Source: a virus | IMG/VR virus record: IMGVR_UViG_3300038307_000206 | Coordinates: 1-37,297 of that record | Strand: one strand, 5' to 3' | DNA: 37,297 nucleotides | Shown here: positions 4,020 through 36,019 of the stretch, piece by piece | Layout: each line of letters starts with the position of its first letter | How positions within the stretch are numbered: the first letter of the stretch is position 1 | Notes under the pieces: generated by a model | The model's database searches: none | The model's input: only the letters and a program-made list of their open reading frames with translations | Told to the model about the DNA's origin: nothing | Made by a program: the position numbers and the translations under genes

Positions 4020-4253
4020 CTACTTGTCGTTTAGCTTTTTAAGTTCGTTATGTATTTCAAAAACAACCAGCATCAACTCCGCGTAAATGCGGACTACTAC
4101 TGGTCCTAATATTGTCATACCAATACCCATTAAGAGGTCTGCTGTAAATGCTGTAACCAGACCCACGATGGCAGCAATAACCATACCCACATAACTCAGG
4201 ACCTTTAGGATTCCCGGAGTTACCATAGTCTTATAATTTAAGAACTCATTCAT
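4020..4253 (-). CDS. DUF4282 small membrane protein
   Basis: This 77-residue membrane protein has two adjacent hydrophobic segments, roughly residues 15-37 and 38-55, and a charged C-terminus ending NELKKLNDK. The start (NEFLNYKTMVTPGILK) and the conserved GPVVVRIYAEL segment match DUF4282, a family of short membrane proteins of unknown function found in bacteria. It lies just upstream of the two tRNAs. Size and topology also recall a holin, but the DUF4282 signature is the better match. An A/T-rich leader of about 60 bp, with a TATAAT at 4275-4280, precedes it; no convincing -35 is seen. Confidence 0.82.
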   Translation of the reverse strand: MNEFLNYKTMVTPGILKVLSYVGMVIAAIVGLVTAFTADLLMGIGMTILGPVVVRIYAELMLVVFEIHNELKKLNDK

Positions 4254-4312
4254 AATGTTTATTTTGTTTTGTTAATTATAGAATACGATCCTATAAAATT
4301 AATAGTTATAAC

Positions 4313-4945: not shown

Positions 4946-4962
4946 ATTAATTATAATTTATT

Positions 4963-5439
4963 TTAAAAGAATAGGCTTCCCGCATTAGACTGGCGTTCTT
5001 GGGCTGGAGTTTGTTCGCTCCCCGAGGTTAACCAACTGCTGCTTTGTATTTTATCTCCTAAGCCGTAGATAGGCTCAATCCCTAAATCTAGACAGAGTTT
5101 ATGCTCTGGCTTTTCGGCGTCGATAGTTCTATCCCCTCCGTTGCAGAACGCTATCTTGTCGTATCTATCTTTGAAAATGCCATTGATCCACTCTAAGGTC
5201 TTACAAACGGTATCGTCATCGTCGATAGATAGAAGAGCCATTGTAACCGGCTTAAAAGCTTGTGTTATTGTTAATCTCTCCCGCCAATTCATGAACGCTT
5301 TACCTTTTTTACGTTCTAGGAACTTATCGTCATTGACTATCACAAACAAATGATCGGCCATGCTTTTAGCCTTTTCGAAACATTCTAAATGCCCGACATG
5401 GACGGGATCAAATCCACCACTAACTATTGCTAATTTCAT
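4963..5439 (-). CDS. Sugar-1-phosphate nucleotidyltransferase, HldE C-domain / cytidylyltransferase-like
   Basis: This HIGH-motif nucleotidyltransferase has GGFDPVHVGHLE near the N-terminus, in which HVGH is the nucleotide-binding signature. The later segment FMNWRERL corresponds to the conserved RxxxL region of glycerol-3-phosphate cytidylyltransferase and the HldE adenylyltransferase domain. At 158 residues it is a single-domain enzyme. Together with the HldE-type kinase gene at 2977-3825 it could activate a heptose or similar sugar, making an NDP-sugar for the GT9 domain further upstream. The ATG at 5437-5439 overlaps the previous stop by one base; a GTG three bases earlier is possible. 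A candidate promoter overlaps the preceding gene's end. Confidence 0.85.
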   Translation of the reverse strand: MKLAIVSGGFDPVHVGHLECFEKAKSMADHLFVIVNDDKFLERKKGKAFMNWRERLTITQAFKPVTMALLSIDDDDTVCKTLEWINGIFKDRYDKIAFCNGGDRTIDAEKPEHKLCLDLGIEPIYGLGDKIQSSSWLTSGSEQTPAQERQSNAGSLFF

Positions 5440-6038
5440 CACTTAAAATACCAATGTTCTTCTGTTGGGGGAACCGGGTCAAGGCGACTCGCTCCAACTA
5501 CATAATTGATGGGGCCACCCGCTATGTATTGCTTCACCTCTTTAATAGACTCAAATTTGCCACTTGATATTTGACCTAATATTTCCACCATTAAGAAAGG
5601 GGGAGACTTTACTAAAATCTCCGAGCTTAGTCTCGCTAAAATGTATAATTTTGGGCTCCTTTCTAGATACTCCCTTTTTGGTATTTTAAGCTCTGTCTCT
5701 CCCCATGAGCCGCCGTAAAATGTTGAAGTCTTAACTTCTGCTCCGTTCTTGAAATCTACGCCATCATCTCTTACTGAGTATATCTTCCTATCTATATCTT
5801 CGCCTATAAACTTTCCGTAAGCATACTCTCCAATAACGCCAGCTATATGGGGGATGTGTCTTTCAGTTACCTCTAAGTTGTATAAGTTGACTACTTTGTT
5901 AGTCTTATATTTTTTGAAGCTTCCGTGTTTGCTTACGTTTCTAAATGATATATCTTTAGCTTCATGCCTGCTTTTACCTACTTGGGCTAAATCTTTTAGC
6001 TGACTGTTGTTAAGCCTGATAGACTTCGTTATATTCAT
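5439..6038 (-). CDS. Putative PD-(D/E)XK nuclease
   Basis: No named family was recognised for this 199-residue protein. The central part shows the layout of a restriction-endonuclease-like fold: a helix with Glu (IGEYAYGKF), then DDGVDF, then EVKTSTF about ten residues later. This fits the E...D-X(n)-(E/D)XK active site, with K in EVK. The following GETELKIPKREYL may close the core. A DNA repair, resolvase or defence role is possible. The stop is immediately followed by the nucleotidyltransferase start. The 3' end also carries a promoter-like element. The assignment is inference from motif spacing. Confidence 0.65.
   Translation of the reverse strand: MNITKSIRLNNSQLKDLAQVGKSRHEAKDISFRNVSKHGSFKKYKTNKVVNLYNLEVTERHIPHIAGVIGEYAYGKFIGEDIDRKIYSVRDDGVDFKNGAEVKTSTFYGGSWGETELKIPKREYLERSPKLYILARLSSEILVKSPPFLMVEILGQISSGKFESIKEVKQYIAGGPINYVVGASRLDPVPPTEEHWYFK
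5454..5482 (-). promoter_or_regulatory. Candidate promoter, weak member of the CCCC-spacer family
   Basis: On the minus strand, TTGACC (5477-5482) is followed by a 17-bp spacer with C at spacer positions 6-10, then GAACAT (5454-5459) as a poor -10. Spacing and the CCCC position match the four stronger elements in this window exactly, and it sits 14 bp before the nucleotidyltransferase ATG. It lies inside coding sequence and the -10 lacks the first T, so it may be chance. Confidence 0.3.
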
Positions 6039-12950: not shown

Positions 12951-12979
12951 AGTCTATCTCGTCGGGGCTACAAAGTCAA
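12951..12979 (-). promoter_or_regulatory. Promoter of the CCCC-spacer family, leaderless arrangement
   Basis: TTGACT (12974-12979), a 17-bp spacer containing AGCCCCG at spacer positions 5-11, then TAGACT (12951-12956) on the minus strand. Only 7 bases separate the -10 from the ATG at 12943, so transcription should start at or next to it. The -35 contains the stop codon of the upstream gene. It matches the dnaB promoter at 22 of 29 positions. Confidence 0.75.
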
Positions 12980-14172
12980 GGGGTTTTTTTGAGTATCCTA
13001 ATATGATCCAAGTCTTTGAAGAAGTTAGGGTTATCTGGTATTTGATAAACGTCAGAAGGATCCATCCTTGATGCTGGCTCTCCGTTTTCTAAAGCTGCTT
13101 GGCTCGCGTAGAACTTGGACTTGTGAATAGTATACTTATTGGTTTGATAAAAAAGCTTTTTAATACTTTCTCCTTCTAGCTGTTTAACTTCATCTGCCCT
13201 ATCTAGCTTAACTCTTGTAACCTTAGGGTAGTCTAAAAACTTAAATTTAATTTTCTCGAACTCTTCATCGCTGGCGTATGTTGCAAGTGTGCATTTTAAG
13301 CCTTCGGAAATAACTTCGTCATAGAAGGACTCCCTTGATCTCTCATTTATTATGTAGATTATTGTATCAATCCTTTTTTTGTTTTTGGTTAGTATATTTA
13401 TGTTAATAGGTTTATCAATCATTAAAGTATACTTGCCGTCGATTGAAAGTTGTGCGTCTATTTTTTCGGGTGTGGTGTTTGTATTTTTTATATCTGCTCT
13501 TATATAACTTGTCTGGCCATCCATGTTTGATATTTTGACAACCTCATCTGGGACTGACTCGACTAAGCCAATATGGAAGAATTTACCAGTGTATAACGTT
13601 TCGTATTCGTAGTCGAAATCTAGACCCAAAAGCTTACAAACAGACTTAGTTATATCCTCTGGAGCTATTGTATTTATGGTCTTCGGTTCTTCATTATGTG
13701 CGTAAGTTGGTTTGTCTCCGTCTTTATTAGACTCTAACAATATCACATCCTCTTCTTTTGACCAGTAGGGACCAGAATGACAAGCGTATTTATTAGAATA
13801 GAGTGCTACTATTTTTTTTCCATATCCAGAGGCTAAGTGAATCGGAAGACTGTCAACTCCAAGGTGCAATATTGAATGCCTTATGACGTAGGCTAACTGG
13901 TTAACGGAAGTGCGACCAAGCAAGTTATGACAATGCTTTACTATCACTTCTGACCCAGCCCCCACCTGTACGATCTCAATACCCTCTTTATCCAGAACCG
14001 GCTTCAACAACCTAACGACAGAGTCCCAATGGTCATATTTCCTTGAATCTGCTTTGTTTGGGTGGTGTAGGGTAATGTATTTGTCAGCCGGAAGTGGGTA
14101 GTATTTTTCGTAGATAAAAGGTTTATCTATTTTAAGGCAACAATTTGATGCATAGGCTTCTAATATGTGCAT
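12976..14172 (-). CDS. GT9 (heptosyltransferase-like) C-terminal half plus unknown C-terminal domain
   Basis: Residues about 30-190 form the second Rossmann domain of a GT9 transferase. Recognisable parts are YITLHHPNKADSRKYDHW, then VQVGAG, then LLGRTSVNQLAYVIRHS, then LGVDSLPIHLASGYGKKIVALYS, the donor-binding region of ADP-heptose:LPS heptosyltransferases. The first Rossmann domain is missing here; it forms the C-terminal end of the gene just upstream, which overlaps by 13 bp. Residues 190-398 are a beta-rich region without a recognised family. The two products probably assemble into one active site, or a -1 shift could join them (ending CTA, re-reading ATG). The natural continuation of the fold across the junction supports a split gene. 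Confidence 0.82.
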   Translation of the reverse strand: MHILEAYASNCCLKIDKPFIYEKYYPLPADKYITLHHPNKADSRKYDHWDSVVRLLKPVLDKEGIEIVQVGAGSEVIVKHCHNLLGRTSVNQLAYVIRHSILHLGVDSLPIHLASGYGKKIVALYSNKYACHSGPYWSKEEDVILLESNKDGDKPTYAHNEEPKTINTIAPEDITKSVCKLLGLDFDYEYETLYTGKFFHIGLVESVPDEVVKISNMDGQTSYIRADIKNTNTTPEKIDAQLSIDGKYTLMIDKPININILTKNKKRIDTIIYIINERSRESFYDEVISEGLKCTLATYASDEEFEKIKFKFLDYPKVTRVKLDRADEVKQLEGESIKKLFYQTNKYTIHKSKFYASQAALENGEPASRMDPSDVYQIPDNPNFFKDLDHIRILKKTP

Positions 14173-16770: not shown

Positions 16771-19344
16771 TTAGTTTCTGACTTCTGAAAGCTTTGTGTA
16801 AACGTGGCTATCTTGTACTGCTATTAGGTCAGCAAAGACAGCTTCTTCGACTTTTTTACCTTTTATTATTACGATGTTACCCTCCTCTGGGTACTTATCC
16901 CCATTCAAACTTTTGCAGGTATTCAGCTTCTCGTTAAACATTAGAACCTTCATAATTCCAGTATCGTCGGATATAGAAGTCCTCAACATGCTGTTCCCTT
17001 TTTTTGTTTTACCTATATGTGGCTTTTCGAAAATAGTGCCAATGAATGTAGATAGTCTCCCTATGGGGCTATTTTCAACCTCTCTTATACTAACTAGGTT
17101 GTCAGTTTTTTCTTCAAATATATCTTTTAAGCTGACTCCGTGGTTGTATCCCAAAAGCCTATTTTCATAATACCAGTTAGCGAAACTTTCTGATTTTATA
17201 TTCTGAGAATAAATCAATCTATAAAGTTCTGTATTTTTTCTAATTGTGTTTATCCGGCTATCCTTGATAATAGGTCTGCCTTTCTCGTCTTTTAACTCTT
17301 CGTTTAAAGCTTTGACGCATTTAGTTAGGTCATAGTTGTACGTTTCAGCTATTGGCATTATGGCAATCTTTTCCCTTTCTGTTAGCTTGCTCCATACTTG
17401 AGCTTCGTAGACTACTTTTGTGCGAGACTGCTTGAAGCCCTCTAAAGCCCCAGCTTGTATGAGAGGGCATAATACAGGCAGCGTTAACCCAGCTTCATTT
17501 GCCCCTTGGAATATTTCAAACTTGTTTGCGTACTCCTTTCTGAAGTTCATTAACTTCTCCACCGACTTATCCGATATCCCTTTGATAGATAATAAACCAA
17601 ACCTTATATTGTCACCTTCAATTTTGAAATCTAAGCCTGACTTTAAGATGTGGGGAGCCATAAGTTTAATTCCAAAAAGGTCTAACTCCCTTTCTATTTT
17701 GGCGATTTCGGTAATAGGATCGGGTTCATGCCTCGTCATTTTAAGTAGAGACAGAAAAAACTCTTTTGGATATTTGAATTTTAAATAAATCGTAGAAGCT
17801 GATAGGGCAGCGTAAGCTATAGAATGAGACTTATTAAAAGAGTAGTTAGCCGAGTCCTCTAAAACACTCCAGAGGACATCTCCCACGTCAACATTACCTT
17901 TATCCCCCATCCATTCACTTGTAAGCCTATTTTCCTCTACCTTGTCAGCAATCTTCTCCTTCCATTCCCTTACTTGAGCCACTTTCTTTTTCCCGACTAT
18001 ACGACGCAAAATTTCCGCTTCATCTAATGTGAAGCCGATTTTGTGAGCCATCTTCATCATCTGCTCTTGGTAGAGACAAACTCCCCCTGTGCTTTTTAGA
18101 ATATCATCAAAGAAAGGATGTATGGAATCGTAAACATCGTTATTAGAGTAGTTGGAATACTGATCAACAAAAGCTAGTGCCCCCGGTCTTCCTAAAGCCA
18201 ACACCGCGCTCAACTGTTCTAGATTTTTAGGTTTTACTTTCTGGCAAACTCTGAAGTTGGTGTCAGCCTCTATTTGAAATAGGCCGTGTGGAGCTCTCAG
18301 GTCTTGCAGGTTTTGGTAAATAAAATTATCGTTAAGATCTATATCCTCAACGTCTATCCCTATCTCCTTACATGCGTTATCTACAACCGAGACGCTCCTT
18401 AGCCCCAGTATGTCAAGTTTTGTATTGGTTAGAGAAACCCAATTCATATCAAAGCCAGAGATAGGGTTCTTGTCTGAGGACAACTCCAAGGGGCAAGACT
18501 CCTCTAGTTTACCATAAGACAAAAGTATTCCGGAAGGGTGAACTCCTTTGTTTTTAATTAGGTTTTTTAGTTTTAATGCTATTCTATAAACCTCCTCATT
18601 CTCGTTAAACCATTCGTCAAGCTGTTCAACTTCTTCTCTTGCTATCTCAAGGTCAGTTACTTTCCCAAAAACCTTAGGTATTAGAGAGGAAACCATATTC
18701 ATTTCAACCTCGGTTTTACTGCCTGCTATTTTCCCACACTCTTTTATAAGGAGTTTACTGCTAAGTTTATTAAGGGTTAAAATCTTTGCTGTCTTACCTT
18801 TGAATTTTGTCTCTAAATACTCTAAGACCTGTTGGCGCTTATAATAACAAACGTCAATATCTACATCACACATTAACTCTCCGTCTAAATATGTTATCCC
18901 TCCTACTACTTGTTTTTTTGCTCTGGTTTTAGATATAAACCTTTCGAAAAATAGGTCGTATTTGACAGGATCTATTTTAGTTACCCCAATTAAAAACAAA
19001 ACTAAACTACCGGCAGCAGAGCCGCGACCTTGTCCGACTGGGATGTTGTTTCTGTGACAAAAGTGAACCACGTCCCAAACCAAAAGAATATAGTCGGTAA
19101 ATCCTAATTCGTGAATAGTGTTTAGTTCATACTTGCCCCTGTTTACGTAGTTGGGGTATTCATCTGGGGTCACTTCCTCTTTGATCCTCTTTATCCCTTC
19201 GTTACATAAGGACTTTAAGAAACTAAAGTTGTCGTTACCAGACAGTTTTACGCCTTTTTTGTTTGGCTTAAAATTTGGCAGTCTGACTCCGTGGATTTCT
19301 AAGTCCAAGTCAGAGAAATTACTATTAAAAGTCTTTTCAGTCAT
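16771..19344 (-). CDS. dnaE: DNA polymerase III alpha subunit, polymerase part without PHP domain (DnaE-like)
   Basis: This is the replicative polymerase, C family. It begins with the region right after the PHP domain and then has the palm: IPVGQGRGSAAGSLVLFLIG, and CDVDIDVCYYKRQ with the catalytic Asp pair (D-x-D), followed by the thumb/fingers (GVHPSGILLS, PHGLFQIEAD, LALGRPGA, YQEQMMKMAHKIGF, SFNKSHSIAYAALS) and a C-terminal OB-fold (IGTIFEKPHIGKT...). At about 857 residues it lacks only the PHP domain, which is a separate gene at 21195-21953 with three genes between. The start is ATG at 19342-19344; a TTG two codons earlier is possible. Clamp and clamp-loader genes are not in this window. 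Confidence 0.95.
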   Translation of the reverse strand: MTEKTFNSNFSDLDLEIHGVRLPNFKPNKKGVKLSGNDNFSFLKSLCNEGIKRIKEEVTPDEYPNYVNRGKYELNTIHELGFTDYILLVWDVVHFCHRNNIPVGQGRGSAAGSLVLFLIGVTKIDPVKYDLFFERFISKTRAKKQVVGGITYLDGELMCDVDIDVCYYKRQQVLEYLETKFKGKTAKILTLNKLSSKLLIKECGKIAGSKTEVEMNMVSSLIPKVFGKVTDLEIAREEVEQLDEWFNENEEVYRIALKLKNLIKNKGVHPSGILLSYGKLEESCPLELSSDKNPISGFDMNWVSLTNTKLDILGLRSVSVVDNACKEIGIDVEDIDLNDNFIYQNLQDLRAPHGLFQIEADTNFRVCQKVKPKNLEQLSAVLALGRPGALAFVDQYSNYSNNDVYDSIHPFFDDILKSTGGVCLYQEQMMKMAHKIGFTLDEAEILRRIVGKKKVAQVREWKEKIADKVEENRLTSEWMGDKGNVDVGDVLWSVLEDSANYSFNKSHSIAYAALSASTIYLKFKYPKEFFLSLLKMTRHEPDPITEIAKIERELDLFGIKLMAPHILKSGLDFKIEGDNIRFGLLSIKGISDKSVEKLMNFRKEYANKFEIFQGANEAGLTLPVLCPLIQAGALEGFKQSRTKVVYEAQVWSKLTEREKIAIMPIAETYNYDLTKCVKALNEELKDEKGRPIIKDSRINTIRKNTELYRLIYSQNIKSESFANWYYENRLLGYNHGVSLKDIFEEKTDNLVSIREVENSPIGRLSTFIGTIFEKPHIGKTKKGNSMLRTSISDDTGIMKVLMFNEKLNTCKSLNGDKYPEEGNIVIIKGKKVEEAVFADLIAVQDSHVYTKLSEVRN

Positions 19345-19537
19345 TTTCAATCGCTCCTTCTATATCTAATCTATGAAGAACCTTTTTAAGCGTATCGATT
19401 GTATGCTTTTTAGAGAGCTTGTAACAAACGTTAGCTTTATTCTTCTTCTCTCCTCTAGAAATAACTACCATAAAATAATCTAAGTTATCTTTTTCTAGTT
19501 TATCTTTTAAGTCCTCTAAGTAATCTAAAGATGGCAT
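19337..19537 (-). CDS. Hypothetical protein, 66 aa, between exonuclease and polymerase
   Basis: This small soluble protein (MPSLDYLEDLKDKLEKDN...) starts inside the end of the DnaQ-like exonuclease gene by one base and ends inside the polymerase gene start (8-bp overlap). Predicted pattern: helix, strand (YFMVVISRG), strand, helix. No family is recognised. Its position inside the split replicase operon suggests a role as a polymerase-associated small subunit, comparable in position but not in recognised sequence to theta of Pol III. That is inference from context only. Confidence 0.75.
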   Translation of the reverse strand: MPSLDYLEDLKDKLEKDNLDYFMVVISRGEKKNKANVCYKLSKKHTIDTLKKVLHRLDIEGAIEND

Positions 19538-20193
19538 TATATGTTTATTTGCATTTTTAGCTTGTTCCAGACTTTTATGTTTAAGCGCAGGTCAACTATA
19601 GCGTCATGCAGCTTATCATAATCATGTTTTATATCAAACTCCTTGCCAAGAGCTGTTAGGTTACTTTTAACCCTTCTTCTCCTCGTGTTCAGTATTTTGT
19701 ATTGGTAAAGGCATAGCTCTCTGTTGCTAAGTTTTCCTCCTTCATTTCTGAAAGGTATGTCATACTTGATACCCCTAGCCAAACAATTAGTATCTATTAT
19801 CTTTTCTACTAAGTGGTTATAGCTCTCTCCCATGAATTCGTAATACCCTTTCAGCAAATATAAGTCAAATCCTAAAAAATTATGACCAACTATATAGTCG
19901 CATTCATCAAGCCAAGGTGACATTTGTTTGAAAGCCTCCTCTGGGCTGATAGCTTTTGACAAGAATTTCTTCTCGTTGTAGCCAGTTATTCTAGCCGCTT
20001 CCTCTCCGACCCTTAAGTCTGTGTCCCATTTTATATATAGATCTTGAGAATCGAGAATTTTGTTTCCTTTATATTTTATTAGGCCAGCTTGCCAAGGGCG
20101 GTTTTGACAAAAGTTCAGGCATAAATTGTACGTCTCGAAGTCGCAAAAAGTATATACTTTATCTTGATTGAATCTAAGTAAATCTTTATTCAT
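19537..20193 (-). CDS. DnaQ-like 3'-5' proofreading exonuclease (DEDDh)
   Basis: This epsilon-type exonuclease of 218 residues probably edits errors of the C-family polymerase. Motif I is TFCDFETYN with D18 and E20, motif II GHNFLGFDLYLLK with D110, and motif III HDAIVDLRL with H196 and D201 in the H-x4-D spacing of the DEDDh class. It lies two genes upstream of the polymerase core, overlaps the preceding gene by 8 bp, and is followed by a 66-residue protein. A clamp-binding motif was not recognised. The DEDDh exonuclease assignment is secure. Confidence 0.92.
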   Translation of the reverse strand: MNKDLLRFNQDKVYTFCDFETYNLCLNFCQNRPWQAGLIKYKGNKILDSQDLYIKWDTDLRVGEEAARITGYNEKKFLSKAISPEEAFKQMSPWLDECDYIVGHNFLGFDLYLLKGYYEFMGESYNHLVEKIIDTNCLARGIKYDIPFRNEGGKLSNRELCLYQYKILNTRRRRVKSNLTALGKEFDIKHDYDKLHDAIVDLRLNIKVWNKLKMQINI

Positions 20194-21202
20194 TAGTTAT
20201 AGTCTCGCCGTCTTTGGGGAAAAAACCAACTGAAGCCATACTCTCGTATTCTTTAATGTTGCTAATGCTTATGGATCTATCAAGCATTAATTCATTATCA
20301 ATAAGCACTTTGATATCTTTCGCTTCGTTTTCTATATTGACTTCCGTTGCTGAAAATTGTCTGCCATAGTTAGTTAGGTTAATTAATTCGCCGTCTATAT
20401 ATACCTTATGTTCGCAACCCTTCTTGTTAACTAAATAAACGTAAGGTTTGGTTTTGTCTTTTGGGTTGTACGCTACGCCAACTCCGCAGGGGGTGCATTT
20501 ATCTATCTCACTATTTGGGAAAATGTTTCCCATTCTATGCTCTTTGTTGTCGCTTTTAATTATCTTTATATTGTTATATTTAATAAAGGGTAGTATTTTG
20601 TGCGCAGTGCCCTCTTCTACCGATCTATAGTTACCGTCAGGTAGAGTATAGGAACGGTCCGCCTCCCATTCATCTATTGTTTTGGGTAGTCTAAGATTCT
20701 CGCTGAAGAAGCGAGAGCTGCCTCCCACCATCGTGATTTCGTAAAAAGATTCTTTTTCGCTGCCCGAGTCAAAGAAAATAGCATCCGCCTTCTCTAAAGT
20801 ATGAAAAAGATCACTTATTACATTAGCGTCCTTATGTCCTATAATGTTATCGTAATCAGTATAAATAAAGCTGTCATAACCCAAAAGCAATGCCATGTTA
20901 GCCCCAATCGAGCAATTGCTGCAGCAGGTATAAGATGTGCAATTTGGATAGATGTGTATATATAATTTTCCGTTTGCAAACCATCTTACTCGAGACTTAC
21001 TTCTATCTAATAGTATGTTTTTATTATTGTAGAAATAGTAATCAGATAAAGCTTGATACCTGTCTCTTACTGGAAAATTTGAAATATGTAAAACATCATA
21101 GCCAAACTCTTTGAATCTGCTAATACAGTCAACCATGATAGACTCTTTCTCTATACTTGGGCAATAGCTATGTACTATGATTAAATTCTTATGCTTACTC
21201 AT
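20186..21202 (-). CDS. Putative GT-A-fold glycosyltransferase lying inside the split polymerase locus
   Basis: The 338-residue protein begins NLIIVHSYCPSIEKES and has ANMALLLGYDSFIYTDYDNI, where DYD resembles the DxD metal site of GT-A transferases working on nucleotide sugars. A Cys-rich segment (SYTCCSNCSIGA) lies just before it. The N-terminal two thirds looks like a small GT2/GT32-like fold; the last 100 residues are beta-rich (YVYLVNKKGCEHKVYIDGE). It overlaps both neighbours by 8 bp, so it is a fixed part of the replication operon, between the PHP-domain gene and the exonuclease. Whether it glycosylates DNA, protein or glycan is unknown. Confidence 0.65.
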   Translation of the reverse strand: MSKHKNLIIVHSYCPSIEKESIMVDCISRFKEFGYDVLHISNFPVRDRYQALSDYYFYNNKNILLDRSKSRVRWFANGKLYIHIYPNCTSYTCCSNCSIGANMALLLGYDSFIYTDYDNIIGHKDANVISDLFHTLEKADAIFFDSGSEKESFYEITMVGGSSRFFSENLRLPKTIDEWEADRSYTLPDGNYRSVEEGTAHKILPFIKYNNIKIIKSDNKEHRMGNIFPNSEIDKCTPCGVGVAYNPKDKTKPYVYLVNKKGCEHKVYIDGELINLTNYGRQFSATEVNIENEAKDIKVLIDNELMLDRSISISNIKEYESMASVGFFPKDGETITNE

Positions 21203-21953
21203 TTAGGGCCTTTCCCCAGTTCTCAAAGCAAAAAGTGTCGGAGGACATGTTGTTAAGCTGTGGCTTCTCTAATGTGCTTCTATTATTAATGCACCTAAAA
21301 GTTAGGTAGGCTTTAAAGTCTTCTTTGTTTTTGTAAAAGACGCTTTGAGTGTTTACTTTTTCGTACTTAGATACAGAAGCGTAATCTTCAACCAAGTCTT
21401 TTAGTATGTGATCATATGGTAGATTGTTATTCTCTACGAAGATCACGGGCTTACAGAAGCTAAAGTCTGGAACACAACCACGACTACTGAAATTATTCTG
21501 AAACACAAAGGAATCGTAGAAAGGAACTGCAAGCAAAAGGTCTTTGTCGCTCCAGTTATTCTTTATTGATTCAAAGTCAGTTCTTGGCTCGTAATAGAAC
21601 CCTTCGGTGGCAGCTTGGCTATAGATTTTGATTAACCTTTTGTACCCGTTCTTGTTTTTACAGAAGATAATATACTTGCAGGAAGTCTGAATGGACGCCT
21701 CGTTCTTTTTATGAAGATCTTGGCAGACGGTAATCCTAACCCCAAATATTAGCTTGATCTTCAGCTTGGATAAGTTTGAGTAAGCCTCCAAAAACCCACC
21801 CATGCAGTCATCAACCAAATAAACTTCCTTTAGGGAATTCTCTTGAGCTATTTGAGGAATCGAGTCTGGCCCATTAGGCTCAGATCCAGACGCCAAAGTC
21901 AGTATACTCCTGCCTAGAGAATAGTGGCTCTTGAATAATGGAATGATGTCCAT
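21195..21953 (-). CDS. PHP domain of DNA polymerase III alpha as a separate gene
   Basis: This 252-residue protein corresponds to the N-terminal PHP region of DnaE and ends where the polymerase core gene would begin. The family layout is visible: start IIPLFKSHYSLGRSI (DnaE: VHLxVHSxYSMxxG), SIPQIAQENSLKEVYLVDD, KIKLIFGVRI, then NKNGYKRLIKIYSQA and GFYYEPRTD. The HxH metal pair of active PHP domains is lost (L6 and K8 at those places, H10 out of register) and the DHG/DFT segment reads DDC, so it is probably a structural, inactive domain like that of E. coli. The gene starts at a predicted transcription start. Confidence 0.85.
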   Translation of the reverse strand: MDIIPLFKSHYSLGRSILTLASGSEPNGPDSIPQIAQENSLKEVYLVDDCMGGFLEAYSNLSKLKIKLIFGVRITVCQDLHKKNEASIQTSCKYIIFCKNKNGYKRLIKIYSQAATEGFYYEPRTDFESIKNNWSDKDLLLAVPFYDSFVFQNNFSSRGCVPDFSFCKPVIFVENNNLPYDHILKDLVEDYASVSKYEKVNTQSVFYKNKEDFKAYLTFRCINNRSTLEKPQLNNMSSDTFCFENWGKALNE

Positions 21954-28182: not shown

Positions 28183-28606
28183 CGTCTGTGAAATCAATTA
28201 AGTTCTTGTGGTATTTTAATCCTTTTTTATTTTTTCCAATTGGTTTGTTTTCTAAGCTGTATGTCTTTTTGTCTGACAGGTTTAGGTTCCTTTTCTTGTT
28301 TTGAAATTTGAGCCACTCTGTCTTCTCTGGCTTCAACCACTCTTTCAGGGAGTATATCTTGTGTCCCTCCGCGTTCAGCCACTTCCAAAACTTTTTGTCA
28401 GGTATAATAGCGAAAAGCTCTTTGGCCCTCTTGTACTGAAAGATGAATGTTATCTTCTTTGGGTCAGAGCAAAAAGTAGAAACCATGAAGGAATAGAAAG
28501 CATGATTCTTATCCTTTGGCGCTGGCTTTTTAGCTTTAGCCTTAGCTTTAGCCTTCTTTTTGCCGGTGTCTCCGATAGATTCTCCTGTTAGCTCAAAGTC
28601 CGTCAT
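28175..28606 (-). CDS. Hypothetical protein with Lys/Ala-rich N-terminus, 143 aa
   Basis: The protein has a short acidic start, then a repetitive Lys/Ala segment (KKKAKAKAKAKKPAPK) that may bind nucleic acid, then a folded-looking part with many aromatics (KFWKWLNAEG, LKEWLKPEKTEWLKFQ) and a basic tail. No family is recognised. It sits between the sugar operon end (gmd) and recA, overlapping gmd by 14 bp. A DNA-binding recombination accessory is plausible from context, but the evidence is weak. Confidence 0.7.
   Translation of the reverse strand: MTDFELTGESIGDTGKKKAKAKAKAKKPAPKDKNHAFYSFMVSTFCSDPKKITFIFQYKRAKELFAIIPDKKFWKWLNAEGHKIYSLKEWLKPEKTEWLKFQNKKRNLNLSDKKTYSLENKPIGKNKKGLKYHKNLIDFTDDE
28530..28555. 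repeat. Short hexanucleotide repeat encoding Lys-Ala repeats
   Basis: Near-perfect repeats of TAGCTT/TAGCCT run through this span inside the 143-residue gene and encode the AKAKAK stretch. Such a tract can expand or contract by slippage. No function beyond the encoded residues is evident. Confidence 0.6.
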
Positions 28607-29633
28607 TCAACGCAAGGTCACAGTGTACCATACGTTCTACCAGTTTGTCAAACGAAATCTGCGGTTCCCACCCTAATTCTTTTCTAGCTGATGTTGAGTC
28701 TCCCCGCAAAAGCTCGACTTCTGCTGGTCTGTAAAATTCATTATCTATTTCTGCTAAGACCGTATTCTCTTGAAAAAGCCTAAACTTTTCGTCCATCCCT
28801 TCTCCACTCCATAAACCGGGGATACCGGCGGCAGCAAAGGCTGTTGTAACAAAGTCTTTAATGGAATGAGTCTCTCCGCTGGCTAGGATATGCTCTTTGG
28901 GTTCGTCTTGCTGCATCATCATCCAAACACCCCTCATAAAATCCTCAGAATCAGACCAGTCTCTCCTTGAATTAACGTTACCTAATCGAATGGGAATAAT
29001 GTCTTCATTGTTTTTTATGTTTTTCTTAATTTTAGCTATGCCTTTTGTAATTTTGCGTGTGACAAATTCCTCGCCTCTTCTCAACCCTTCATGGTTGAAC
29101 AAAATGCTATGGATAGCGAAAATGTTGTAAGACTCTCTGTAAACCTTAGTTAGGTGTCTACAAGCTGCCTTAGAGGCTCCATAGGGGCTTCTGGGTTTAA
29201 TGGGGTGTTTAAGGTCTTGCGGTGAGTAATCCACGTCCCCCATCTCTTCAGAGCTACCAGCGCTATAGAACCGACATTTGGGAGCATAGCACCTAATAGC
29301 TTCTAAACACCTAAGTAAACCGGTGGTGTTAGTTTCCCAGACATGGATCGGGCTTGTCCAGCTACATCCAACATAAGAGTTAGCGGCAAAATTTAAAAAA
29401 TAATCTGGGGAATACTTCTTTACGGCGCTATTTATACTCGTTGAATCAGTAAGGTCTCCATGAAACAGGGTAAATCTAGGGTGGGACAGCAAGTGCTTGA
29501 TGTTGTGGTTATTCGGTATCGAAACCCTCCTAGACATTCCGTAGATATGGATATCCTCATGGTCGTTTATGAGGTGGTCAGCCATATTGGAGCCGTCTTG
29601 TCCTGTCACTCCCGTTATTATTACTTTTTTCAT
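28593..29633 (-). CDS. gmd: GDP-mannose 4,6-dehydratase
   Basis: Gmd converts GDP-D-mannose to GDP-4-keto-6-deoxy-D-mannose. It is a 346-residue SDR with TGVTGQDGSNMADHL (NAD(P)-binding, family TGxxGxxG), SAGSSEEMGDV (Ser/Thr and Glu of the active site), SPYGASKAACRHLTK (YxxxK catalytic pair), and QQDEPKEHILASGETHSIKDF, the clear Gmd-family signature. The product is the shared substrate of the next two enzymes encoded upstream (Fcl-like and ColD-like), so the three form a pathway. The operon also holds matching transferases. It overlaps the following gene by 14 bp and the DegT-type gene by 4 bp (ATGA). Confidence 0.96.
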   Translation of the reverse strand: MKKVIITGVTGQDGSNMADHLINDHEDIHIYGMSRRVSIPNNHNIKHLLSHPRFTLFHGDLTDSTSINSAVKKYSPDYFLNFAANSYVGCSWTSPIHVWETNTTGLLRCLEAIRCYAPKCRFYSAGSSEEMGDVDYSPQDLKHPIKPRSPYGASKAACRHLTKVYRESYNIFAIHSILFNHEGLRRGEEFVTRKITKGIAKIKKNIKNNEDIIPIRLGNVNSRRDWSDSEDFMRGVWMMMQQDEPKEHILASGETHSIKDFVTTAFAAAGIPGLWSGEGMDEKFRLFQENTVLAEIDNEFYRPAEVELLRGDSTSARKELGWEPQISFDKLVERMVHCDLALNDGL

Positions 29634-30874
29634 AAGTTGTTTAAATATTCTGTTAAGTTTAAGATCATGCTTTTTTTAACTTTGTGGTTTAGCCCTACAT
29701 AAAAGCCGTAATTGTGGAGGTGTTCGGCTACTGGGTATTCCTTCCATTGTTCCTTTTGGGGAAATGGTGAGAGGTATGGTCTCTGTCTAAGCATGTTTCC
29801 TCCTATTATCTGCCTGTGCTCTATTTTATTTTTAGTACAAAAGGCTTTTGCGTTAAGTAGTTGATCTTTAGCTCTCCAGTCTGCCGTTTTATTTTTGAAA
29901 ATTATAGGCAAGCAAAATGGAACGTTTAGGTTATGTATGTCAAACTTAGGTAGTGCAAACTTTTCATGGTCAATCTTTCCTGCGAAGTAGGAGTACAATT
30001 CTCTCCTAGTCTCAATATAGTCTTCGATCCTCTTAAAGTCTAGTAAGCCTATAAAAGCTTCTATGTCTGTAGCCCTATAGTTACTTCCCATGCAGAAAAA
30101 ATCGAAACTAGGGTCAACCAAATTGTTCTGATAGAGTTTGCAGTCTATGCCGTATTCTGTCAGGCTTCTGGTCATACCATGCGACCTGTTCATCAGGTGG
30201 AATTTATACTCCCTCTCGTCGTCGGTTAGGATAAAGCCTCCCTCTACTGAGGTGGTATGGTGCCCGAAGTAAGTAGAGATGGAGCTTGTTGCTACCTTAC
30301 AAATATGGGTTTTGAGCGTTAGGTCTCCGTCTTCTGTTGTCGATAAGACCTCTCCAAAAGCGTTCTCGCAATTATCTAGTCCATATTCTACTTTATGTTT
30401 TCTGCATTCTTCTGTAATTCCTTTTACGTCTGGGTTAAACCCAATTAAAGAAGTAGGCCACACGTAGGCAACCTTATCTCTATTCTTTTCTAAATATAGC
30501 CCCAGCTCTTTGGCGCTCATTCCAAAGTCATCATAAGTTATATCTATAAACTTTACTTTAAAGCCTGCTTTTATCCAAGGGGTAACAGACGTTTGCCAAG
30601 TTACAGAAGGTACTAACACTGTGGAGCCGATTGACTTATGGGTGCCGTCTTCAGTTTTGTGTTTTATATACTGAGCAATGGAGGAGTTAGCGGTAGAGCC
30701 GCTAGAAAACATAACGGCGTATTTACAGCCTGTGTATTCAGCCCACGCCTTCTCGTATTCTCTTACATACTTTCCTTGAGTCCACCTGTTCTTTTTTGAT
30801 AAAAAGAACTTACATATCTTGAGGCGGTCTAATAGGGTAAAGTTATCTACGTTTAATTTCCATTCTTGTACCAT
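29630..30874 (-). CDS. DegT-fold PLP enzyme with His in place of Lys; probable GDP-4-keto-6-deoxymannose 3-dehydratase (ColD/RfbH type)
   Basis: DegT/DnrJ family, 414 residues. The PLP-fold segments are visible: FSSGSTAN, VLVPSVTWQTSV, GLDNCENAFGEV, then SISTYFGHHTTSVEGGFIL. The residue that holds PLP in aminotransferases is Lys; aligned from the EGG motif it is H205 here. That substitution, and the SHGMTRS motif after it, mark the deoxygenating dehydratases such as ColD and RfbH (E1), which remove the C-3 hydroxyl. With Gmd alongside, ColD activity on GDP-4-keto-6-deoxymannose is the most likely, leading toward a 3,6-dideoxy sugar such as colitose with the adjacent Fcl-like enzyme. The alternative is GDP-perosamine synthase, but that needs Lys. 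It overlaps both neighbours. Confidence 0.82.
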   Translation of the reverse strand: MVQEWKLNVDNFTLLDRLKICKFFLSKKNRWTQGKYVREYEKAWAEYTGCKYAVMFSSGSTANSSIAQYIKHKTEDGTHKSIGSTVLVPSVTWQTSVTPWIKAGFKVKFIDITYDDFGMSAKELGLYLEKNRDKVAYVWPTSLIGFNPDVKGITEECRKHKVEYGLDNCENAFGEVLSTTEDGDLTLKTHICKVATSSISTYFGHHTTSVEGGFILTDDEREYKFHLMNRSHGMTRSLTEYGIDCKLYQNNLVDPSFDFFCMGSNYRATDIEAFIGLLDFKRIEDYIETRRELYSYFAGKIDHEKFALPKFDIHNLNVPFCLPIIFKNKTADWRAKDQLLNAKAFCTKNKIEHRQIIGGNMLRQRPYLSPFPQKEQWKEYPVAEHLHNYGFYVGLNHKVKKSMILNLTEYLNNL

Positions 30875-31749
30875 TCTACGGTTTGTTTAAGTCCTTCTTT
30901 TAGGTCTGTGAAAGCGTCATCTGATAGATTTAGCGCTTCTACTATTTTTGTATTATTTAATGTTCTAACCTCCGCCTCTTTAGATTCGTCTGGTTCTTCC
31001 ATCTCTATCACCCCTTCGTAGCCGGTTATCTCTACTAGCGTCTCTACTATAGATTTAATTGTGACAGTTAAGAAGGTTGAGACGTTGTACGTTCCTTCGA
31101 TTTTTTTTCTTAAACATTCTGAGATGGCGTTGCATAAGTCCCCGCTATACATAAAGTCTCTTCCGTTATTTGGGTTGCCTAATACTTTTATAGTATCTTC
31201 TTTTGATACCATTTGCCTAATTAAATTTGGAATAACATGAGATACAAAAGGGTCAAAATGGTCATGCGGGCCATACATATTGGTTGGAATTAGTATACAT
31301 GATTTAATTAGATCTGGACAGTCTATGTTTAAGGCGTCTATAACCTTGTGACCCAACCTTTTAGAGTGGCCGTATCCGAAGTTATTATTGTTGGGATTAT
31401 CTAGAAAAACGGAATCCTCTTGACTGTTACCGTCTCTGTAGACGCAAGCGCTACTTACATATATGTAATAACAACTTAACCTTAGCTTCTTTATAGCCGT
31501 TGCTAAATTTAAAGCAATTAAAGAGTTGTCTCTTAATAGCTCTACGTTGTTTATTTTGTTGTATTGAAAGCCTCCAACTCTAGCCGCCATATTTACTATA
31601 GCTTCAGGCTTGGTTCCGTCTAAATAGGTTAAAACTGAATCCAGATTCGTCAGGTCGCAAACCGATTTATTAGGTTTAAAGGCTAGGTCAAGATCGGGTC
31701 CTAGGCTTGAGCCCACGAAACCTCTAGCTCCAAATATTACTGTGCTCAT
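30853..31749 (-). CDS. Fcl-like NAD(P)-dependent epimerase/reductase (GDP-fucose or GDP-colitose synthase type)
   Basis: This SDR of 298 residues (from ATG at 31747-31749) acts as a 5-epimerase/4-reductase on a GDP-4-keto sugar. GARGFVGSSL is the nucleotide-binding motif, NMAARVGGFQYN is the signature of GDP-L-fucose synthase (AAKVGGI), VSSACVYRDGN holds the Ser, and FGYGHSKRLGHK holds the YxxxK pair. Depending on which substrate it accepts, it makes GDP-L-fucose directly from the Gmd product or, as ColC does in colitose synthesis, reduces the ColD product. Presence of ColD-like and GT11-like genes makes both routes plausible. It overlaps the GT11 gene by 4 bp and the ColD-like gene by 22 bp. 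Confidence 0.9.
   Translation of the reverse strand: MSTVIFGARGFVGSSLGPDLDLAFKPNKSVCDLTNLDSVLTYLDGTKPEAIVNMAARVGGFQYNKINNVELLRDNSLIALNLATAIKKLRLSCYYIYVSSACVYRDGNSQEDSVFLDNPNNNNFGYGHSKRLGHKVIDALNIDCPDLIKSCILIPTNMYGPHDHFDPFVSHVIPNLIRQMVSKEDTIKVLGNPNNGRDFMYSGDLCNAISECLRKKIEGTYNVSTFLTVTIKSIVETLVEITGYEGVIEMEEPDESKEAEVRTLNNTKIVEALNLSDDAFTDLKEGLKQTVEWYKNGN
31053..31071 (-). repeat. Second copy of the 19-bp shared sequence
   Basis: This is identical to 16099-16117, but here it lies inside the Fcl-like coding region, where it encodes part of LTVTIKS. The coding location argues against an obligatory regulatory role. Confidence 0.35.
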
Positions 31750-32582
31750 ATTTTTATCCAACTTTCTGGTACTATATCCTTGTCCTCGTAGTTTTTATTG
31801 CGGTCTTTTATTCGTGGGTTAAACCAAACCTTAGGAGCAATGACTTTCTTATCCTCTTTTTGATTCATCCAAGCTCCCCACCAACTGAAACTGCTATTTG
31901 CTATGATGTTATTCTTACATAGGGACATGCAAAGAAGGTCGGCGTATGGCGAGTGCTCCTCTTTGTTGAAGTAGTAGTTGTCTGATTTAAAGTTTTCCAT
32001 GCACCACTCCGGGTCATCTGAAAAGAATATGTATTTCTTTGTATTAGATTCTTCCATGGATTTTTGGTAGTAATCTTTATCTAATATGTTGTAATAATCT
32101 GATTTCTTTAAATAATCACCCCTTCTTACGTGGACAGATGTGCATTCAAATGGGTCTATCTCTTCTCCCGAGCTTCTGTTTAAAAAGTTCATCGCAAACG
32201 AATACGTATAACCCGTCGGGGTCAAGGTTTGTAAGATTTTATCCCTGTAGTCTTTGAAGTATTTTTCACATTGGAAATATCCGTGGAGATTTGTGTTATC
32301 TTTTATGTCGTTTAGTAGATTAGGGTCGTAAGACATTCCCGATTCGCTTACTTCATACATTATGTTCCCTAAGTCTTCTTTCTCTAGGTTGTCGTAAACT
32401 TTTTTAAACCCTTGAAATATAGAATAACAATTAGCTTCATACGACTCTTCGTAGAAAGTTTCATTTTTGTAAGGTATCTTAATATCGTAACCATACCTTT
32501 CCGCCACAGCTATTAGGGTACTGTACTGGAATAAGGAATTCCCCAATCCGCCAAACCTACCAAGCTTTCTAAAGGTAATCAT
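31746..32582 (-). CDS. GT11-type alpha-1,2-fucosyltransferase-like protein
   Basis: This transferase uses a GDP-6-deoxy-L-sugar donor and has 278 residues. FRKLGRFGGLGNSLFQYSTL is the GT11 start, TSVHVRRGDYLKKSDYY is the donor-binding HxRRxDY motif, and NSSFSWWGAWMNQ is the third GT11 signature. GT11 enzymes move L-fucose, and some move L-colitose, which fits the neighbouring GDP-sugar enzymes. No signal peptide was seen, so it acts in the cytoplasm. The gene overlaps both neighbours by 4 bp. The family call is secure; the exact donor and acceptor are unknown. Confidence 0.92.
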   Translation of the reverse strand: MITFRKLGRFGGLGNSLFQYSTLIAVAERYGYDIKIPYKNETFYEESYEANCYSIFQGFKKVYDNLEKEDLGNIMYEVSESGMSYDPNLLNDIKDNTNLHGYFQCEKYFKDYRDKILQTLTPTGYTYSFAMNFLNRSSGEEIDPFECTSVHVRRGDYLKKSDYYNILDKDYYQKSMEESNTKKYIFFSDDPEWCMENFKSDNYYFNKEEHSPYADLLCMSLCKNNIIANSSFSWWGAWMNQKEDKKVIAPKVWFNPRIKDRNKNYEDKDIVPESWIKI

Positions 32583-33295
32583 TTATAGTTTTCCGTGAAC
32601 CACTCGTCAGGCCTGTTTTGATCGAAGAGCCTAATCTGATCGTGGCTATAATCTATGTTCCTCTGGACTATATCGCTAAAGCTTTTACCTTGGACGGCGA
32701 AAAGGGGATTGCAAATATATGTCGCGTGCTTTGACTGAATTTCTTGTATTAAGAAGTTGTCGACAGCTACGCATCCCGCCGTGAATTCTACCAAATCTGA
32801 TATATCCTCTGGAACTTTGGATAATATATCGTCGTAAACTGTGTGGTTATATGCTACTGCGTGAGTAGCCTTAGCGCAATTAGTCCGGAATAAAAAATTA
32901 GAGACCATGCTCATTTTTTTCTCAACCGTTGCTCCTAGGTAAAATAGCCCCCAAGTATTAGGCAGATCTTCTGCAGAGTGTCTCACCGACGTTATATCTT
33001 CATGAAGAAAAGAAACGTCGTCTTCAAATACGAGGACTTGCTCCATCCCTTCTTCTTTAGCTTTTTTTATTATGGCCCTGTGGGAGCCGAGGCATCCTGC
33101 ATTAGGTACTATGTGGTAGGGTCCTACCTTGGTGTCAAACTTAGGGTCAAACTCGTATCCCCTTGGATTTACAGCCGGAAACCTTTGTACTTTCTCTTTA
33201 ATGCCTATTTGAGAAAAAGACTTTTGGACTTGGTGCCACCTATCTTCTCTGGAGGTTAAGTTTATACAGTAAATATCATTAAATAAACTCAACAT
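32579..33295 (-). CDS. GT25-type glycosyltransferase
   Basis: This GT-A-type enzyme has 238 residues. DIYCINLTSREDRWHQVQKSF is the characteristic start of the LPS beta-galactosyltransferase/GT25 group, followed by GCLGSHRAIIKKA and VLVFEDDVSF, where EDDV is the metal-binding acidic motif. These enzymes usually transfer Gal or Glc onto LPS-type glycans. It overlaps the fucosyltransferase-like gene by 4 bp and the small 58-residue gene by 17 bp. Family assignment is good; the sugar is unknown. Confidence 0.9.
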   Translation of the reverse strand: MLSLFNDIYCINLTSREDRWHQVQKSFSQIGIKEKVQRFPAVNPRGYEFDPKFDTKVGPYHIVPNAGCLGSHRAIIKKAKEEGMEQVLVFEDDVSFLHEDITSVRHSAEDLPNTWGLFYLGATVEKKMSMVSNFLFRTNCAKATHAVAYNHTVYDDILSKVPEDISDLVEFTAGCVAVDNFLIQEIQSKHATYICNPLFAVQGKSFSDIVQRNIDYSHDQIRLFDQNRPDEWFTENYK

Positions 33296-33459: not shown

Positions 33460-34125
33460 CTATTCTCCTATAAAATCCTCGCACTGATCCCAATTGCCGT
33501 CACCTCTAGCATGAACTCCATATTTACCTATGTGGCTAACCATGCTGGTCTTAGAGCAAAGTAAGAGCTCCCCTTTTTCTTGAGATTTATAAACTACCTC
33601 CCAGTCCCAACAGAACCACGGCTTATTTATTGTGGCGGTAGTCTCATCCATATCAAAGAAATACGAACTCTTAACGGCTACTGTCATCCCTCCCATACTC
33701 TCTTTAACGTTAAGATCATCGTCGTAAGCGCCGGTAACAGGATGAACTGAAGCGTTAAATAAGGATATAGCAGCTGCAAAATCAGTAATCCCCGGCTTGG
33801 AAAGCTGTTTCTTAAAAAAGTTTAACCACTCTTTATTGTAGATAGTATCACTGTCTGTGCTAATGATATATTCACATCCTGTTTTCTCGATTATTTCTCT
33901 GGCTGCTAAAGTTATATTAGTATCGCACCCCAAGTTCCTTTCGTTGACTGTTATTTCAATTTGGGGGTGATCTTTTAATGAGTCTAATATACCTAATGTT
34001 TTTGGTTCTTCGCTACAATCGTCATAAATATGTATAGTTGAATCACCTAAGTCAGACTTAAGTAGAGACTCTATAGATGACTTGAGGTACTTAGATCTAT
34101 TGAATGTTGTTAGTAGTATTTGCAT
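33460..34125 (-). CDS. Family 2 glycosyltransferase
   Basis: This GT-A inverting glycosyltransferase has 221 residues. MQILLTTFNRSKYLKSSIESL is the GT2 start, TIHIYDDCSEE gives the first acidic motif, VNERNLGCDTN the family middle, and CEYIISTDSDTIY the DxD metal site. It lies in the glycan operon next to the other transferases and overlaps the GT69-like gene by 29 bp. The donor cannot be told from sequence. The nearby GDP-sugar enzymes do not by themselves prove a GDP donor. Confidence 0.92.
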   Translation of the reverse strand: MQILLTTFNRSKYLKSSIESLLKSDLGDSTIHIYDDCSEEPKTLGILDSLKDHPQIEITVNERNLGCDTNITLAAREIIEKTGCEYIISTDSDTIYNKEWLNFFKKQLSKPGITDFAAAISLFNASVHPVTGAYDDDLNVKESMGGMTVAVKSSYFFDMDETTATINKPWFCWDWEVVYKSQEKGELLLCSKTSMVSHIGKYGVHARGDGNWDQCEDFIGE

Positions 34126-34870
34126 CTTTTTTATTGTGCCAGTGCTTATCTCTTACATGCATAGTGTTATACCTGCCGTCAAAACCGATTTTGTTAAAGC
34201 CAAAAGCTCTAAAGTTTTCGCACACTACCGCATTTTCACTATCGTGATTTTTTAGCCTCTTATTTACATATCCAAAAGTTGCACCTCTTTTAAAGGCTTC
34301 TGGGTTATAGGAGACAAAACCGTTTCCCGTTGTCCAAGTTTGATTATCTCCTTTCGTGTTGTAGGGTTTGTTATCCCACCATTTGTCAACTGGGCTTCTT
34401 CTGGTCGCCCACCTGTCGTAAAATTCATCTGCTGTGCCAGAGTCTCTACTAGCAAAAGAAAATATATCCCACTCCAGACTTTTTTCTATGATCTCTACCG
34501 CGTGTTTTGGGTCATAGGAACAATCTATATCGTTCATAATAATCCTATCTATAGAATCTAAGTCTCCAAACTGGTAGATGCACAAATTTCTATAGGCAGA
34601 AAGCCTTTCTATCCTTTTTCTCTCTAGGCCAATAAAGTATTCTTTATCGTTCTTTTCTGAGGAAAGGTTAAACCAATTAGCGAAGCTCCAATCTAAGTTT
34701 TCTAGATCCTCTTTGGAGCTATCTTCGCTATCGTTTTCGTATAGACTGATGTTAAAAGTCCAACTTGGCCTTAGAGACTGGATTGAACGTATTCTAGAAT
34801 ACCAGTCACCTATAAACTCCGCCTTGTCTCTTATTAAGGAGCAAAACAAGATTTTTAAATCTTTTGCCAC
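34097..34870 (-). CDS. GT69-like (CAP59/alpha-1,3-mannosyltransferase type) glycosyltransferase
   Basis: The 257-residue protein starts with KILFCSLIRDKAEFI and SLYENDSEDSS (family: YENxSxDxT), has RLSAYRNLCIYQ, then IDRIIMNDIDCSYDP, the acidic metal-binding segment of GT69-like enzymes. The later HVRDKHWHNKKD is a histidine/basic tail that may bind phosphate. GT69 was first known from fungal CAP59 mannosyltransferases, with bacterial and phage relatives. It starts with GTG at 34868-34870. It is the first gene of the glycan operon downstream of the DUF2589 pair. The sugar is inferred, not shown. Confidence 0.8.
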   Translation of the reverse strand: MAKDLKILFCSLIRDKAEFIGDWYSRIRSIQSLRPSWTFNISLYENDSEDSSKEDLENLDWSFANWFNLSSEKNDKEYFIGLERKRIERLSAYRNLCIYQFGDLDSIDRIIMNDIDCSYDPKHAVEIIEKSLEWDIFSFASRDSGTADEFYDRWATRRSPVDKWWDNKPYNTKGDNQTWTTGNGFVSYNPEAFKRGATFGYVNKRLKNHDSENAVVCENFRAFGFNKIGFDGRYNTMHVRDKHWHNKKDANTTNNIQ

Positions 34871-34883: not shown

Positions 34884-35384
34884 CTAGTTAGGTAGAATCT
34901 TCACTAATTGATCGTTTATCCTTGATAGGCCCTCTGGGGAGGAGGCGCTTGACATCTTAATTTTAATCCTAGCAAGATTTGCCCTCTTCCCTGCTCCGAT
35001 TTTAGCGCTCAACTTGTTATTGTTCACATTATTGTCATCGCTGAACTGTCCTAGGTCAACTTTGAGCTGCATCTCTAGTTCGGATATGCTTAGGTGGGAG
35101 TTAGGTGCTAATGTTAGAAGCGGTATAGCTGATTCTTTTACTTCTCCATTATTGTCGGGTAAGTTAACCTTAAAGGTAATCGGGTTTCCTGCATCGTCAA
35201 AGTAGGTCGACATTAACCTACTTAAATGCTCTGTTTCAACCTTTCTTTGAGCGTATACTACAGAGTTGTATATAGACTCTACAAGCTTGTCTAAAGAGCT
35301 GGAGGTGAGATCCGGCTTAGAGTTTTTAATCTCTTCACTCTCTAACTCACCTGTCTTTTTTAGGGAATAGTTGGTTAAGCCCAT
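34884..35384 (-). CDS. DUF2589-like protein, divergent paralog (166 aa)
   Basis: The central segment IPLLTLAPNSHLSISELEMQLKVDLGQF follows the same pattern as the neighbouring 207-residue DUF2589 protein (VPLLAIVNTPNLSVKDVTIDFDMKV), with matching hydrophobic and polar spacing, followed by a basic strand (ARIKIKMSS). It is thus a probable divergent member of that family, perhaps a partner subunit. It lies 11 bp after the DUF2589 gene and 14 bp before the first transferase. The function of the family is not known to me; both could be structural or envelope-associated. Confidence 0.72.
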   Translation of the reverse strand: MGLTNYSLKKTGELESEEIKNSKPDLTSSSLDKLVESIYNSVVYAQRKVETEHLSRLMSTYFDDAGNPITFKVNLPDNNGEVKESAIPLLTLAPNSHLSISELEMQLKVDLGQFSDDNNVNNNKLSAKIGAGKRANLARIKIKMSSASSPEGLSRINDQLVKILPN

Positions 35385-35395
35385 TAATTATTTAC

Positions 35396-36019
35396 TTAAG
35401 CAGGCGGAACAGGCTTAATGGCGTCCCCTAGGATATCGAGGACTTTCATTAGCCCTTCGGGAGCCCCGTCGTCCCTAGCTTCGCAATGCACCGTATACCT
35501 AGCCGAGTTGTCAGTCTTTCTCGTGTTACTGCTCTTACTTCCGACTGACGCCGTCATTGAGCATTTAACTGGAGACCACCAAGAGCTATAAGAAGCTTTT
35601 GTGTTTATATTTGCCGTGACTGAATCGTTATGTTCAGTACTTGACTGAACCTTCATGTCAAAATCAATAGTGACATCTTTAACTGAAAGGTTTGGGGTAT
35701 TGACAATAGCTAATAGGGGAACGTTCAATGTTCTAGGCTCAATCTTAGTTAATGTCTGTTCAGTTGTTACGAACTGTCCATCGGCCCCAGTAACTGTTGT
35801 AGATACGACACCCGTTTTATACTCAACTGGAGTATCGTAATTGAACTTGACTTGCCTTGCTTGTAGCCCGCTTACGCCGCTTTCAAGACCTATTTCTTCA
35901 ATAAATTGTTCTGTGATGCCTGCTAATTTACCTTGGGCTTGCGCTGCTGCAATTAGCGGTTGTGAGATCAGCTCTCCTATCGGGAGGCCTTTAAATTGGT
36001 CAGCTATTCTTGATGCCAT
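35396..36019 (-). CDS. DUF2589-family protein (207 aa)
   Basis: This has the features of DUF2589: start with an amphipathic segment (LPIGELISQPLIAAAQAQGKLA), then FIEEIGL, the core VPLLAIVNTPNLSVKDVTIDFDMKV, a Ser/Lys-rich strand series (SSWWSPVKCSMTASVGSKSSN) and a short Pro end. The family is widespread in bacteria and some phages and its role is unclear. The region upstream has an A/T-rich leader with TATATTATAAC but no convincing -35. With its divergent paralog and two lipoprotein genes, it may form a secreted or membrane-linked complex. Confidence 0.85.
   Translation of the reverse strand: MASRIADQFKGLPIGELISQPLIAAAQAQGKLAGITEQFIEEIGLESGVSGLQARQVKFNYDTPVEYKTGVVSTTVTGADGQFVTTEQTLTKIEPRTLNVPLLAIVNTPNLSVKDVTIDFDMKVQSSTEHNDSVTANINTKASYSSWWSPVKCSMTASVGSKSSNTRKTDNSARYTVHCEARDDGAPEGLMKVLDILGDAIKPVPPA

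Follow-up and report, generated by a model that had tools for sequence, protein, structure and literature searches.

A predicted ColD-type sugar C-3 dehydratase, with histidine at the PLP-lysine position, encoded beside Gmd in an uncultured virus lineage

The replacement of a lysine by a histidine is the main difference of the sugar dehydratases from the related aminotransferases, and among these dehydratases E1 and SpnQ contain an iron-sulphur cluster, which ColD lacks (PMC8987622). A protein of this kind is encoded on the minus strand of the IMG/VR virus record IMGVR_UViG_3300038307_000206, in a string of genes for sugar-nucleotide enzymes and glycosyltransferases, and an earlier note on this DNA had read it as a ColD-like 3-dehydratase of a 3,6-dideoxy-sugar route, of a sort found in few phages. 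The locus thus raises three questions, i.e. which type of enzyme the protein is, which sugar the neighbouring genes would make with it, and how widely such genes are spread among viruses. The window, by which we mean the whole stretch of 37,297 nucleotides that was analysed, contains the following features at this locus.

28593..29633, minus strand: Gmd-like GDP-mannose 4,6-dehydratase, 346 aa (TIGR01472, PF16363)
29630..30874, minus strand: predicted ColD-type nucleotide-sugar 3-dehydratase, 414 aa (DegT, PF01041), with His205 in the place of the PLP lysine
30257..30265, minus strand: codons of G204-H205-H206, the predicted active-site motif (H205 codon 30262-30260, counted from 30874)
30853..31749 (or 31761), minus strand: Fcl/ColC-like C-5 epimerase / C-4 reductase, a short-chain dehydrogenase (NF047922)
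31746..32582, minus strand: GT11 glycosyltransferase, fucosyl/colitosyl type (PF01531, E=1.7e-26)
32579..33295, minus strand: GT25 glycosyltransferase, overlapping the GT11 gene by 4 bases (PF01755, E=4.7e-11)
33460..34125, minus strand: GT2 glycosyltransferase (PF00535, E=5.3e-14)
34097..34870, minus strand: CAP59-like mannosyltransferase domain protein (PF11735, E=1.1e-10)

The open reading frame (ORF) 29630-30874 starts with an ATG at 30874, its coordinates being those of the earlier note, and its product belongs to the DegT/DnrJ/EryC1/StrS family (PF01041, E=1.1e-32, 114 bits). It contains the motif STYFGHHTTSVEGG, whose first H is residue 205 and whose second is residue 206. In a phmmer alignment with PDB chains, the column of His205 is the site of the ColD mutations H188N (3B8X) and H188K (2R0T, 3GR9), and the E1 mutation H220K (3BB8) falls on it as well; an alignment of 202 DegT proteins also pairs residue 205 with ColD residue 188. 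Since the ColD and E1 mutants share this column, His205 occupies the PLP-lysine position, as had been proposed from the letters, and no lysine was found there. The histidine is invariant in all 40 of the aligned ColD-type sequences, and a 96%-identical, intact gene is present on two further viral contigs; it is therefore neither a chance substitution nor a sequencing error. Invariant with it in the 40-sequence alignment are W93, D167, C169, S200, R236, N265, R267 and R354, while H232 and N360 are nearly so; the roles of residues other than ColD His188 were taken from PDB titles and a review (PMC8987622). Among the viral relatives His outnumbers Lys by 86 to 3, a biased count that gives no frequency, as one of the scan patterns itself contained HH.

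Several lines of comparison place the protein with ColD. Its best PDB match by sequence is ColD (2GMS, E=1.5e-32), with E1 at 1.6e-13 and perosamine synthase at 7e-12. The AlphaFold2 model, built from the 40-sequence alignment (pLDDT 91.7, pTM 0.91), adopts the DegT fold, and its 11 best PDB matches in Foldseek are all ColD chains; a search of BFVD folds returned only distant PLP enzymes, none closer than the ColD set in the PDB. In the 202-protein alignment the twelve active-site columns are all identical to those of E. coli ColD (W-D-C-S-H-H-H-R-N-R-R-N). Furthermore, in a maximum-likelihood tree of 71 proteins (50 rows of ColD type, 8 of E1/RfbH and 13 of Lys types), the ColD-type clade, which includes both the window protein and ColD of E. 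coli O55, has a support of 100/97. The window protein is thus like the ColD of E. coli O55 (2GMS, 2R0T, 3B8X, 3GR9) in its modelled fold, its histidine, its 12 of 12 positions and its lack of an Fe-S motif, but it differs by an insertion of ~8 residues before the motif, by an identity of only 28.9% to this enzyme of known function, and by a long viral branch. Its own clade is viral-only (100/100), on a branch of 0.94 changes per column, which may point to a changed specificity. Judged from the sequence and the model, the ORF very probably encodes a ColD-type PLP/PMP-dependent sugar C-3 dehydratase, and in this respect the first reading has been borne out by His205, the active-site fingerprint and the tree.

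The neighbouring genes suggest what such an enzyme would work on. The order on the minus strand is GT25, GT11, Fcl-like, ColD, Gmd, a 143-aa ORF, UvsX, HNH, DnaB and primase, and adjoining frames from GT25 through the 143-aa ORF overlap by 4 to 22 bases, which suggests that this part of the string forms a single transcript. The profile matches and coordinates agree with the flanking Gmd, Fcl-like and GT11 genes that had been named beforehand. The Gmd-like protein matches TIGR01472 (E=1.3e-96) with 323.8 bits, under the cut-off of 415, and PF16363 with 343.5 bits; it shares 39% identity with the E. coli O55 Gmd protein and keeps the catalytic positions S (for T), E, Y and K in the alignment. 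The likely start of the Fcl-like gene is the ATG at 31749, which gives a 4-base overlap with the end of the GT11 gene, and the Fcl-like product matches NF047922 with 120 bits (cut-off 500). It retains the equivalents of Fcl S107, C109, Y136, K140 and H179, which we take to be the catalytic residues, is nearly as distant from ColC (25.2% identity) as from Fcl (24.4%), and lies on a tree branch of 2.87 changes per column, being very divergent. Used as a control, the E. coli O55 cluster for colitose contains gmd, GT11, colC and colD, i.e. the same four enzyme families as the window, and its GT11 shares 29.9% identity with the window GT11 (E=1e-28).

Using the ColD mechanism described in a review (PMC8987622), we infer the substrate, product, acceptor and purpose of the window pathway as follows. 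Gmd would convert GDP-mannose to GDP-4-keto-6-deoxymannose; glutamate would turn PLP into PMP, which would then condense with the 4-keto sugar supplied by the neighbouring Gmd; His205, acting as the base, would take a proton and drive the loss of the C-3 hydroxyl; and hydrolysis of the intermediate would release GDP-4-keto-3,6-dideoxymannose with no iron-sulphur cluster involved. The Fcl-like enzyme would then most likely carry out C-5 epimerisation and C-4 reduction to GDP-L-colitose, and the GT11 protein, together with the other transferases, is predicted to put the sugar on a glycan, which during infection is probably the host's surface polysaccharide, where changed receptors or blocked superinfection might be the outcome. 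The first two predicted steps, from GDP-mannose to GDP-4-keto-3,6-dideoxymannose, are well supported by the Gmd and ColD-type matches, and to this extent the 3,6-dideoxy-sugar route proposed earlier stands, while its other two parts are predictions: L-colitose is the end product that we somewhat favour, and transfer by GT11 would follow. The support for L-colitose is weaker than that for GDP-4-keto-3,6-dideoxymannose, since the Fcl-like enzyme has diverged strongly and its family tree does not reflect the presence of ColD.

In that tree of Fcl proteins, the labels for ColD-linked and ColD-less members interleave, requiring 11 changes against a mean of 11.1 when shuffled; being mixed as much as shuffled labels, they cannot decide between GDP-fucose and GDP-colitose. 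The GT11 family also takes in fucosyltransferases, including the alpha-1,2-fucosyltransferases. It is therefore conceivable, though in our judgement unlikely, that Gmd and the Fcl-like protein make GDP-L-fucose for a GT11 fucosyltransferase, with ColD forming a separate branch or competing for the intermediate. Such a reading would accord with the ColD-less cyanophages P-SSM2, DSL-LC02, DSL-LC03 and S-SCSM1, which have gmd-fcl with a fucose-type annotation, that of S-SCSM1 having been published as a fucose route (PMC9602691); it fits less well with a string that has one Gmd and one Fcl-like gene, with ColD between them and the frames overlapping, and with the same enzyme set in the E. coli colitose cluster.

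The substrate might also be a heptose. In Campylobacter jejuni HS:5/HS:11, C3-dehydratases with ColD-like chemistry, using PLP and glutamate, act on a heptose substrate (PMC10440746), and a ColD-type enzyme converting GDP-4-keto-6-deoxy-heptose to a 3,6-dideoxyheptose could be imagined here as well, as the window also encodes a PfkB kinase, a heptose kinase/adenylyltransferase-like protein and a GT9 heptosyltransferase-like ORF. We regard this as quite improbable: the 4,6-dehydratase matches the GDP-heptose dehydratase 7us5 at only E=1.1e-25, against 7.9e-81 for GDP-mannose enzymes, the heptose-type genes lie 16-27 kb off and look to be of the ADP-heptose kind, and in C. jejuni the epimerase and the reductase are separate proteins, not a single Fcl-like one (PMC10440746).

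Other enzyme types fare worse still. It is very improbable that the DegT protein is an ordinary sugar aminotransferase like perosamine synthase, or a paralogue that has lost its function: PHROGs and part of the ACG-2014f records use the label 'aminotransferase', but most aminotransferases read F-D-A-S-K at the active-site columns where the window protein has the ColD fingerprint with His for Lys, Lys-type proteins fall outside the ColD-type clade, so that the phylogeny does not group the protein with aminotransferases, and active-site residues that vary little or not at all in the 40-sequence alignment argue against decay. E1/RfbH, the CDP-4-keto-6-deoxyglucose 3-dehydratase (3BCX), shares the DegT fold and the His for Lys with the window protein, but it has a [2Fe-2S] cysteine set, and Trp/Cys/Lys where the window protein has His/Arg/Arg; phage and bacterial proteins of this type, the phage members including S-H68 and others, read F-D-C-S-H-H-W-C-N-K-R-N at the twelve columns. 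By alignment, the cysteine set was found to be absent from ORF 29630-30874: the CxC positions of E1 correspond to R236 and L238, further E1 cysteines to gaps, and C169 is the sole cysteine in common, as in ColD. Reading the protein as a 3-dehydratase with a [2Fe-2S] cluster that acts in CDP-sugar (abequose/tyvelose) synthesis, in line with the annotation of the S-CAM7 relative, is hardly credible in spite of the shared histidine and a match to the RfbH model NF011936, since that match of 102 bits is far under the cut-off of 423, R-x-L stands for CxC, the adjoining dehydratase is of the GDP-mannose kind, and the tree separates E1/RfbH from the ColD-type clade. The choice between ColD and RfbH that had been left open at first is thus narrowed, with the support of these comparisons, to the ColD type.

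As for the virus itself, a near-identity DNA search in phages gave no match. The best matches to the window's DnaB and polymerase in phage records are less than 30% identical, so the window appears to come from a virus lineage without a close cultured member. The nearest kin of its ColD, with which it forms the viral-only clade, are on five contigs, at 45-47% identity, and two of these keep the order ColD-Gmd-UvsX-HNH-DnaB-primase, although their DnaB is only 35-40% identical to that of the window. Since the order has been kept despite the diverged DnaB, the ColD-Gmd pair was most likely already present in the common ancestor; its constant place beside UvsX-HNH-DnaB-primase, which is the new finding here, would make it an old part of this uncultured lineage. 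On one of these two contigs, of 66.8 kb (G007, locus L091), the ColD-Gmd pair (3721-5977) has a CAP59-like homologue directly upstream of ColD. A search of this contig for an Fcl-like gene found none, and the end product may therefore differ from one member of the lineage to another.

Among viruses at large, the expectation that such a route is found in few phages proved wrong. Related proteins occur in 62 phage records, and at least 570 stretches in IMG/VR encode relatives. In the 80 best viral-contig loci, gmd is found within 3 kb in 70, fcl in 72 and both in 65, and 29 of the 80 have a GT11 gene within 5 kb as well. In the Synechococcus phages S-CAM7 (KU686212) and ACG-2014f (NC_026927), gmd, fcl, colD and GT11 stand in a row, these being the same four families, adjacent and with the same His motif, as in the window. 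However, their ColD is only 32-33% identical to the window protein, the order gmd-fcl-colD-GT11 differs from GT11-fcl-colD-gmd in the window, and the phage type, the neighbourhood and the Fcl subtype are all different. We found no open-access paper describing a phage colitose route, mostly judging on titles and abstracts, and a literature search for colitose with cyanophage returned nothing; the cassette thus seems to be present in databases and unremarked in papers. A wider view, that the ability to make a 3,6-dideoxy sugar (L-colitose or a related one) is widespread among viruses and anciently inherited, with ColD-Gmd fixed next to the replication genes in one uncultured lineage and recurring with fcl in many other aquatic phages, serving to rebuild host surface glycans during infection, is put forward tentatively, at slightly less than an even chance. 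If true, many phages would carry a short pathway that turns GDP-mannose into a dideoxy sugar otherwise known from bacterial O-antigens, and the effect of phage sugar genes on the host surface would become directly testable with four small enzymes.

Phage annotations would be corrected as well, such genes having been filed as aminotransferases or CDP-sugar enzymes. The ColD of S-CAM7 (KU686212, 8013-9146 of locus L004) is labelled a CDP-4-keto-6-deoxy-D-glucose-3-dehydrase and that of ACG-2014f (NC_026927, 7974-9167 of L005) an aminotransferase; both have the ColD fingerprint, are without an E1-type cysteine and lie in a gmd cassette. A ColD-type and an RfbH/E1-type 3-dehydratase are found together on some viral contigs, at L093 (15-1373 and 5983-7134) and also at L150, L164 and L167; such viruses possibly have a CDP-linked 3,6-dideoxy-sugar route besides the GDP-linked one.

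Elsewhere in the window, the PfkB-type kinase (2977-3825), a cytidylyltransferase-like protein that matches heptose kinase/adenylyltransferase families (4963-5442) and the GT9 heptosyltransferase-like ORF (12976-14172) suggest that a further sugar route, resembling that of ADP-heptose, may be encoded. An Rfam search of the window returned only two tRNAs. The polymerase, for which an assignment to PolA was rejected, is of the DnaE type (DNA polymerase III alpha) and appears to be split (16771-19350 and 21195-21953), one ORF holding the PHP domain and another the catalytic part, with an exonuclease (19537-20193) and a further ORF between them. Finally, two adjacent ORFs at 34884-36019 both match DUF2589.
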